From NCBI RefSeq assembly GCF_017751145.1, contig NZ_CP046640.1, forward strand, positions 2,212,137 to 2,276,136: a DNA stretch of 64,000 nucleotides, read 5' to 3'. This DNA is from Iocasia fonsfrigidae (GTDB lineage: Bacteria; Bacillota; Halanaerobiia; Halanaerobiales; DTU029). Shown here in pieces: positions 53,126 through 54,777 of the stretch. A program made the position numbers and the translations under genes. The notes under the pieces are model-generated. The model was not told where the DNA came from, ran no database searches, and saw only the letters and a program-made list of their open reading frames with translations. Position 1 is the stretch's first letter. Every line of letters starts with the position of its first letter.

Positions 53126-53193
53126 TTGCACTGACCCAGCACTCCCGTTATCATACATTAAGGTTGCACTGACCCAGCACTCCCGTTATCATA
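53126..53193. repeat. Two identical 30-base repeats, period 38
   Basis: The 30 bases beginning TTGCACTGACCCAGC and ending CGTTATCATA occur identically at 53126-53155 and 53164-53193, with 8 bases between. They are markedly GC-richer than the surrounding AT-rich DNA. Two copies with an 8-base gap do not make a CRISPR array. They may be relics of a mobile element end or binding sites. Confidence 0.9.
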
Positions 53194-53251
53194 TATTTAG
53201 ATCCCATTAAACATAGAAAATTCAGTATCAACTGATTGTAAATTTAAAATA

Positions 53252-53278
53252 ACAAATCTAAGTAGCAGACATATATTA
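53252..53278 (+). promoter_or_regulatory. Candidate SigK-type promoter of the first SPOCS gene
   Basis: AC (53252-53253), 16 bases, CATATATTA (53270-53278), 62 bases before the start codon. It matches the Bacillus mother-cell SigK pattern AC-N16-CATAnnnTA. The same arrangement precedes the paralog. Confidence 0.5.
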
Positions 53279-53339
53279 GTATATAAAATAATATTCAAAA
53301 TTATTTATTTTATTAATGGAGAAATAAGGAGGTGTTAAG

Positions 53340-54011
53340 ATGAAACATCAAAAAAAACTATATATCTATCCTGATTATTCTTTATCTACTAAAAAAATTA
53401 ATACATTAGAGTTACTTGCTGAAAAAGAAGTAAGTATCTTTAAAACTAATAATCTAAGTAATATCACTCCCCCCATCACTGAATTACTAGAACCTATAGT
53501 ATCTGTCAATTTTGCCCGGGCAGTCCTTTTTAAAAACAAAATAGTCATTCAGGGTGAAATAAATAAAAATATGATCTATAAGGCAGATAACAATATTATT
53601 AATTATGAAGAAGAAGGAATAGAGTTTTCAAAAGAAATTAACCTCCTAGGCCTATCACCCTATTACTATACCGGCAAATTTAATCGTCTCGTTAAAAGTA
53701 ATCCAGTAATTGAAATCAATAACCTTTCTGGGTTCTCAAACGGAATTGATATCCAGTTATATCTAAATAATCTTAGTGTAAAACAATTTCTACTTAATAG
53801 CACCACTGTTGAACAGAAAATACTAGTTGTTTTTATAATTAAGGTTTCCAGATTAACCCAGAACAAAATAAAATTACCTAAACCAGCACCTGTTTTTACA
53901 TATCATCAAAAGATTCCCTGTAATAATAAAGTAATAAAGAAAGATAAAAAGATAAAAAGAAAAAGAGAAAAAGACGGTGTATCTTCCCCTTTAGAAGTAG
54001 AAGAAATTTAA
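53340..54011 (+). CDS. SPOCS-domain (DUF3794-like) protein, first paralog
   Basis: 223 residues without a signal peptide. A central SPOCS-like domain (about 45-105): VLFKNKIVIQGEINKNMIYK, then GIEFSKEINLLGLSP, the pattern of DUF3794 proteins such as SipL and many spore-coat or engulfment-stage proteins. The last 30 residues are a Lys/Arg-rich tail (KKDKKIKRKREKD) not found in the paralog. ATG at 53340 with GGAGG seven bases upstream. One of only three plus-strand genes. Likely role: spore coat or morphogenesis, by inference from domain and promoter. Confidence 0.75.
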   Translation: MKHQKKLYIYPDYSLSTKKINTLELLAEKEVSIFKTNNLSNITPPITELLEPIVSVNFARAVLFKNKIVIQGEINKNMIYKADNNIINYEEEGIEFSKEINLLGLSPYYYTGKFNRLVKSNPVIEINNLSGFSNGIDIQLYLNNLSVKQFLLNSTTVEQKILVVFIIKVSRLTQNKIKLPKPAPVFTYHQKIPCNNKVIKKDKKIKRKREKDGVSSPLEVEEI

Positions 54012-54054
54012 ATCCAGAAACACATGAATAAATGACAATCTATATTAATATACA

Positions 54055-54081
54055 ACATTTTATCTATAATAACATATATTA
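54055..54081 (+). promoter_or_regulatory. Candidate SigK-type promoter of the second SPOCS gene
   Basis: AC (54055-54056), 16 bases, CATATATTA (54073-54081), 28 bases before the start codon. The nine-base -10 region is identical to that of the first paralog while the spacers differ, which suggests selection on the boxes. Confidence 0.5.
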
Positions 54082-54108
54082 TTATAAATAATGAAAGGGG
54101 GTATTATA

Positions 54109-54675
54109 ATGAAAAAAATTAGAAAAACCCTTAAATTACTTGAACTTTCAGCCGAGAAAGCAGTTCAGGTTTTTGAAACAAATACAGTTATGAATCTATC
54201 ACCGGCAGTTGTTGACGTATTGAATCCTATCCTTTCTGTTGAATTTGACCGGGTAGTATTATTTCAGAACAAGGCCATAGTCCAAGGCACCATATTCAAA
54301 AACCTAATTTATAAAGCTGTTGGTGGTCAATTACAATATGTAAATGAAGAAATACCTTTCTCAAAAGAAGTAGAATTACCTGGTGTAAGTCCAAACTTTA
54401 CAACAGGCAGATTTAATAAAATGATCCTTACTAATAATGTTATTGAAATTGGTCCGGGCAACCGTGGAACACAAACAGGTATAGATATTCAATTATATGT
54501 CACTCAATTAACAGCTGCACAAATTATCCTTGATACAACAACAGTCGAGCAAAAAATTATCCTTGATTTTATTATTAAGGTGTCAGAATATACTCAGCAG
54601 GATGTTGACTTACCAGCACCTGGCCCTGTTTTTGAATGCAGAAATATTATCAACTGTAATAATCTCGACTGTTAA
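54109..54675 (+). CDS. SPOCS-domain (DUF3794-like) protein, second paralog
   Basis: 188 residues, clearly homologous to the protein encoded upstream over about 160 residues: shared VLFQNKAIVQGTIFKNLIYK, IPFSKEVELPGVSPN, GIDIQLYV, TTVEQKI and a PAPGPVF end. It lacks the basic tail and instead ends in a Cys/Asn-rich stretch (ECRNIINCNNLDC) that could form disulfides or bind metal. The ATG at 54109 has GGGGG seven bases upstream; the ATG at 54091 precedes that site. Own promoter-like sequence, so it may be expressed separately. No signal peptide. Confidence 0.77.
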   Translation: MKKIRKTLKLLELSAEKAVQVFETNTVMNLSPAVVDVLNPILSVEFDRVVLFQNKAIVQGTIFKNLIYKAVGGQLQYVNEEIPFSKEVELPGVSPNFTTGRFNKMILTNNVIEIGPGNRGTQTGIDIQLYVTQLTAAQIILDTTTVEQKIILDFIIKVSEYTQQDVDLPAPGPVFECRNIINCNNLDC

Positions 54676-54735
54676 ACCGGGTAACAAGAAATTATATTTC
54701 CTAATAATAATATAATAATTATAGACTGATACAAA

Positions 54736-54766
54736 ATAGAAGCCCCTGATTTTAAAGGGCTTCTAT
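54736..54766. terminator. Bidirectional terminator between SPOCS gene and purL
   Basis: ATAGAAGCCC and GGGCTTCTAT form a 10-bp stem with an 11-base loop in the gap between convergent genes. T-rich bases flank both ends, so it can serve both the plus-strand SPOCS gene and minus-strand purL. Confidence 0.8.
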
Positions 54767-54777
54767 TTCTTAAAAAA

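Follow-up and report, generated by a model that had tools for sequence, protein, structure and literature searches.

Two neighboring genes that are read from the plus strand inside a minus-strand region raise the question of when in the life of the cell they are expressed and what their products are for. They are located in the 64-kb window, by which we mean the whole stretch of DNA analyzed, a part of a single-contig genome of 3,926,493 bases. The layout of ORFs bears out the opposite orientation which had been noticed at the start: the pair is flanked by minus-strand dprA and a 239-aa ORF, and by minus-strand purL (gene names by inspection). Gene 1 (53340..54011, plus strand) codes for a single-SPOCS protein of 223 aa with a basic C-terminal tail that is predicted to be disordered, and gene 2 (54109..54675, plus strand) for a single-SPOCS protein of 188 aa, the ancestral-like copy, with three Cys in its C-terminal tail. 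Ribosome binding sites read from the sequence are AAGGAGGTG for gene 1 (53326..53334, plus strand) and AAAGGGGG for gene 2 (54094..54101, plus strand); the latter stands before 54109, which is most likely the start of gene 2, rather than 54091. Between the convergent gene 2 and purL there is a perfect 12-nt inverted repeat with a loop of 11 (54734..54768), possibly a two-way terminator, which is missing from the output of a consensus terminator scan. The close relatives named by protein search are a Halanaerobiales MAG, a Halanaerobiaceae MAG, Fuchsiella alkaliacetigena and Candidatus Frackibacter.

The products were expected to be homologous SPOCS-like proteins, and they are: they share 50% identity over 180 aa and both exceed the Pfam cut-off of 23.6 bits for PF12673 (SipL/SPOCS), with 27.5 bits for gene 1 and 39.8 bits for gene 2, the same family being matched at E 0.01 by 10 of the 11 aligned members. 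Each protein has a single SPOCS stretch and no LysM, so neither has the SipL architecture, in which several SPOCS domains are followed by a LysM at the C-terminus, and by inspection neither carries a signal peptide. The original prediction also stated that the paralogs diverge at their ends. This holds for the basic tail of gene 1 (KKDKKIKRKREKDG) and the Cys-bearing tail of gene 2 (VFECRNIINCNNLDC), but the Cys tail as such is not specific to one paralog: Cys close to the C-terminus recurs in the orthologs G002 and G004, as well as in G038a and G050a, and is absent in G001. The predicted models are all-beta, with an insert and a tail of low confidence; mean pLDDT is 81.8 for gene 2 and 72.8 for gene 1. 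A sequence search of solved structures returned chance-level matches only (best E 0.018), Foldseek against PDB gave no match at E 0.001 or better and VIA-align none at Z of at least 5. No solved relative was thus found, and the claim on the fold is limited to all-beta.

Short homologs are present in 10 of the 61 genomes (the copy in G039 being broken), and all 10 belong to the 29 genomes with spoIVA. The broken copy (L052, G039:C1 2024437-2024718) is a short SPOCS homolog with an in-frame stop near its start. The ortholog in G001 is likewise situated near dprA, and transporter- and nitrilase-like neighbor genes (names by inspection) are common to G001 and G004. In a tree of 18 proteins gene 1 pairs with gene 2 with support of 92/96, which is not full, and the branch of gene 1 is five times longer than that of gene 2 (1.21 vs 0.23), its composition being skewed. 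We read this as a tandem duplication after which gene 2 retained the old role and gene 1 became the fast-evolving diverged copy. Gene 1 could also be a duplicate that is decaying and performs no function itself. Its long branch and skewed composition would speak for this, as would the finding that two short SPOCS genes stand side by side in none of the other genomes of the 61, G002 being unreadable past its contig end. Nevertheless, gene 1 keeps a full-length frame, a good ribosome binding site and a SigK-type promoter, and its residues 21-100 are modeled as a block with pLDDT of at least 85, all of which makes decay quite unlikely.

Each gene had been predicted to be preceded by AC, 16 bases and an identical CATATATTA, with unrelated spacers, and this description proved exact. 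AC-N16-CATATATTA is found by pattern match on the plus strand at 53252-53278 (SigK-type -35 AC at 53252..53253, -10 CATATATTA at 53270..53278) and at 54055-54081 (AC at 54055..54056, CATATATTA at 54073..54081), that is 61 nt and 27 nt before the start codons of gene 1 and gene 2, respectively, and nowhere else in the window; of the 16 spacer positions 3 are identical in the two sites. These two matches compare with 0.13 expected, and 0 of 100 shuffles reach two. Without AC, CATATATTA is unremarkable, with three occurrences in the window vs 2.23 expected. Upstream of gene 1 two tandem copies of a dispersed 38-bp repeat (53126..53200, plus strand) contain AC-N16-CATACATTA and AC-N16-CATATATTT and thereby add two more SigK-like matches. 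Two further single copies of this repeat, at G000:C1 2407241 and 1459087, have no recognisable spore genes beside them. The repeat was considered as a promoter cassette and rejected, its other copies being located by an opposite-facing transporter-like ORF and in a region with sigma-factor-like and phosphatase-like ORFs (names by inspection).

Such promoters could in principle be vegetative ones read by SigA, their SigK likeness being a by-product of AT-rich DNA. A sigma-70-like 9/12 match, ATAACA-17-TATATT (53249-53277), does overlap the gene 1 site, and SigK-like motifs are at background genome-wide: the motif with CATANNNTA occurs 151 times vs 172 for the reversed control, and AC-N16-CATATANTA has 23 sites vs 23. 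On the other hand, the region has about as many sigma-70-like sites as chance would give (12 vs 11.9 expected), the gene 2 site has no such match over it, and different families of the class keep the SigK-type register, which leaves vegetative transcription very improbable. As the motif is as frequent as its reversed control, genome-wide counting gave it no significance; a single site proves nothing and the case for SigK depends on comparison with other genomes. Seven of the 23 AC-N16-CATATANTA sites are not inside an ORF and have a plausible gene start no more than 160 nt away, and three of these seven belong to SPOCS genes. Two SigK-like sites elsewhere, at G000:C1 1409184-1409210 and 1427862-1427888 (L199 and L200), have nearly identical spacers; one precedes a fucosyltransferase-type gene and a mannose-1-phosphate guanylyltransferase and the other is in a region that includes a NeuB-like gene (names by inspection), possibly spore polysaccharide genes.

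The genome encodes sigK (a match of 330 bits, above its cut-off), a sigE-type gene, spoIVA, dpaA and spoIIIAA. The original prediction had named the absence of sigE and sigK as an argument against itself, and both are present. The SigE -35 is described as differing from that of SigK by T instead of C in the fourth place, and in B. subtilis an Arg in SigK vs a Gln in SigE decides between these two bases (PMC517825). The same Arg/Gln pair is found here, GISRSYVSR in SigK and GISQSYISR in SigE. The B. subtilis SigK consensus is given as -35 KCACM, a gap of 15 plus or minus 1 and -10 GCATANNNTA (PMC517825; consensus letters PMC3416734), which means that AC should stand 16-18 nt before CATA. Two features of a SigK regulon are thus seen in the sequence, AC-N16..18-CATANNNTA upstream and a sigK gene whose product has the Arg for reading C in the -35. 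In some members of the class sigK matches are split into N- and C-terminal pieces, as in G046:C35 (22893-23087 and 25073-25543, about 2 kb apart) and similarly in G053, G055 and G058, possibly by skin-like insertions.

For the comparison across genomes we used 13 short SPOCS genes of class members, both window genes included and the stop-broken G039 homolog left out, with start codons picked by our own Shine-Dalgarno score. The yardstick of SigK type was dpaA, which in Bacillus is under SigK control, and that of SigE type was spoIIIAA (with the truncated G002 match excluded and doubtful starts in L155, L163 and L170). AC-N16..18-CATANNNT is present within 200 nt upstream in 11 of the 13 short SPOCS genes (shuffle mean 0.70, maximum 4), the two without it being G050b and G050c, and 9 of the 11 have the full CATANNNTA; the genomes compared are related and hence not independent. 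The same promoter, which was expected before SPOCS genes of relatives, is therefore there, the short SPOCS gene of Fuchsiella alkaliacetigena being one example. The motif is found in 28 of 28 dpaA upstreams, or 27 of 27 if the fragment L141, which has no true start and should not count, is removed, in 5 of 28 spoIIIAA upstreams and in none of the six spoIVA upstreams. Together with a spacing of 16 that lies within the range of 16-18, these counts support, at the level of promoter sequence, the original reading of a Bacillus SigK pattern that would point to late mother-cell expression. Several genomes (e.g. L149, L153 and L166) have a repeated GGACAAAC near the spoIIIAA start codon, which we take to resemble a SpoIIID box.

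A different sigma factor of the mother cell, SigE, could read these promoters early, as it does with sipL of C. difficile (PMC3789822). The -10 is described as common to SigE and SigK (PMC517825), gene 1, G001, G002 and G004 have an ATA 18 nt ahead of CATA as read from the sequence, and a loose SigE pattern occurs upstream of 3 of the 13 short SPOCS genes (mean of shuffles 1.73). However, the B. subtilis SigE consensus implies ATA 15-17 nt before CATA, and the nearest ATA upstream of the -35 position is found at N18 for gene 1 and N20 for gene 2, which has none at 15-18. The sole -35 element common to all 12 aligned promoters is AC, at N16 in 11 and N17 in one, with A next in 12 of 12. Promoters of SigE type are moreover recognisable among SPOCS genes and of different appearance: two genes, in Frackibacter and G050 (L090:8121-9000 and L093:1-800), have a near-perfect SigE promoter (score 0.94), and these resemble the SigE-controlled sipL of C. 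difficile (PMC3789822). On our own weights for SigK vs SigE, 27 of 35 other SPOCS genes favor SigK and 8 SigE, with dpaA scored as SigK in 28 of 28 and spoIIIAA as SigE in 19 of 28 and SigK-like in 9 of 28. We consider early, SigE-driven expression of the pair unlikely, and the assignment of its putative promoters to SigK well supported.

This promoter link does not extend to SPOCS genes outside the class, where it was tried and failed, with the motif in none of the six genes of one set and in 3 of the 13 readable rows of a second set of 14, in which the row L205 was misread owing to a truncated flank. Two other arrangements were observed along with these comparisons. The short SPOCS genes of L092 and L093 have their SigK-like site as far as 130-140 nt upstream, and a further ribosome-binding-like site lies in between, possibly that of a small leader ORF. 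In the region G000:C1 3470000-3486000 (L089) four multi-SPOCS genes, two of which code for LysM-like ends, are clustered at 3473-3481 kb, in the company of glycosyltransferase-like genes and one CAP-domain-like gene (names by inspection). A SigK-type promoter is present within 250 nt upstream of three of these four.

From these results we conclude that the two genes are quite probably late mother-cell genes under SigK, coding for single-SPOCS subunits of a coat scaffold that work like CotE of Bacillus. Sequence analysis supports the homology, the conserved putative promoter, the residues of the sigma factors and the predicted layout of body plus tail. The CotE-like function is what we infer for proteins that lie outside the CotE Pfam family: a search of the 61 genomes, this one included, returned no CotE (PF10628), with a positive B. 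subtilis control, and the window proteins gave no PF10628 match up to E 1. It is this missing CotE, together with the comparison of CotE, SpoVID and SPOCS proteins, that leads us to think of late scaffold subunits. Late in sporulation the mother cell would transcribe each gene from a separate SigK-type promoter, and the products, synthesized in its cytosol, would be deposited around the forespore. The folded all-beta SPOCS body may self-associate and may dock on earlier SPOCS-LysM (SipL-like) proteins, and the short disordered tail, with Cys in gene 2 and basic residues in gene 1, could set cross-linking or the choice of partner.

It is also conceivable, though rather unlikely, that the genes are SigK-timed and their products belong to the outermost layer, exosporium-like or an appendage, or aid the deposition of spore polysaccharide. 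This would fit with the Cys-bearing tails, with the glycosyltransferases beside the SPOCS cluster of this genome and with the SigK-like site before a fucosyltransferase-type gene and mannose-1-phosphate guanylyltransferase (names by inspection), but the SPOCS proteins of known role (SpoVID, CotE and SipL) are coat morphogens. If the scaffold reading is taken further, one may tentatively imagine, as a doubtful extension, a two-stage SPOCS coat throughout the class: a SigE-timed SPOCS-LysM hub would come first, and SigK-timed single- and multi-SPOCS proteins would then dock by SPOCS-SPOCS contacts in place of the missing CotE, the type of tail (Cys or basic) deciding on layer or cross-link.

Halanaerobiales are described as having LPS outer membranes (PMC5007114), and we found little literature on how their spore coat is built and, among open-licence papers, none on single-SPOCS genes of this group. 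The promoters of dpaA and SPOCS genes offer a ready SigK consensus for the group, and they suggest that one domain family provides both early hub and late scaffold proteins. The gene pair points to a candidate for the missing CotE, and since the same promoter stands before related genes of other salt-loving spore-formers, the coat program of a little-studied group becomes testable.

The putative promoters share AC, 16-18 nt and CATANNNTA with the SigK regulons of B. subtilis and C. difficile, although the spacing in SPOCS genes here is mostly 16, one below the B. subtilis optimum implied by PMC517825. SipL of Clostridioides difficile has the same PF12673, but it carries three SPOCS domains and LysM and is under SigE, whereas each window protein contains one domain without LysM and its gene has a SigK-type promoter. 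The B. subtilis protein SpoVID is likewise a mother-cell coat protein with a SPOCS domain, but it is a LysM-bearing hub and the window proteins are small and single-domain. Its N-domain is reported to be the SPOCS domain, which is named after SpoVID, CotE and SipL (PMC10867305), and to be bound by B. subtilis CotE (PMC6282716). B. cereus CotE is reported to form a trimer; its body is folded, and its unstructured, acidic tail governs the formation of a meshwork (PMC11980541). The window proteins differ from it in having no PF10628 match and tails that are basic or Cys-bearing instead of acidic. As in CotE, their single SPOCS-type body of about 150-170 aa is followed by a disordered tail and there is no LysM, and they probably also work as CotE does, in a coat scaffold that docks on a SPOCS-LysM hub.
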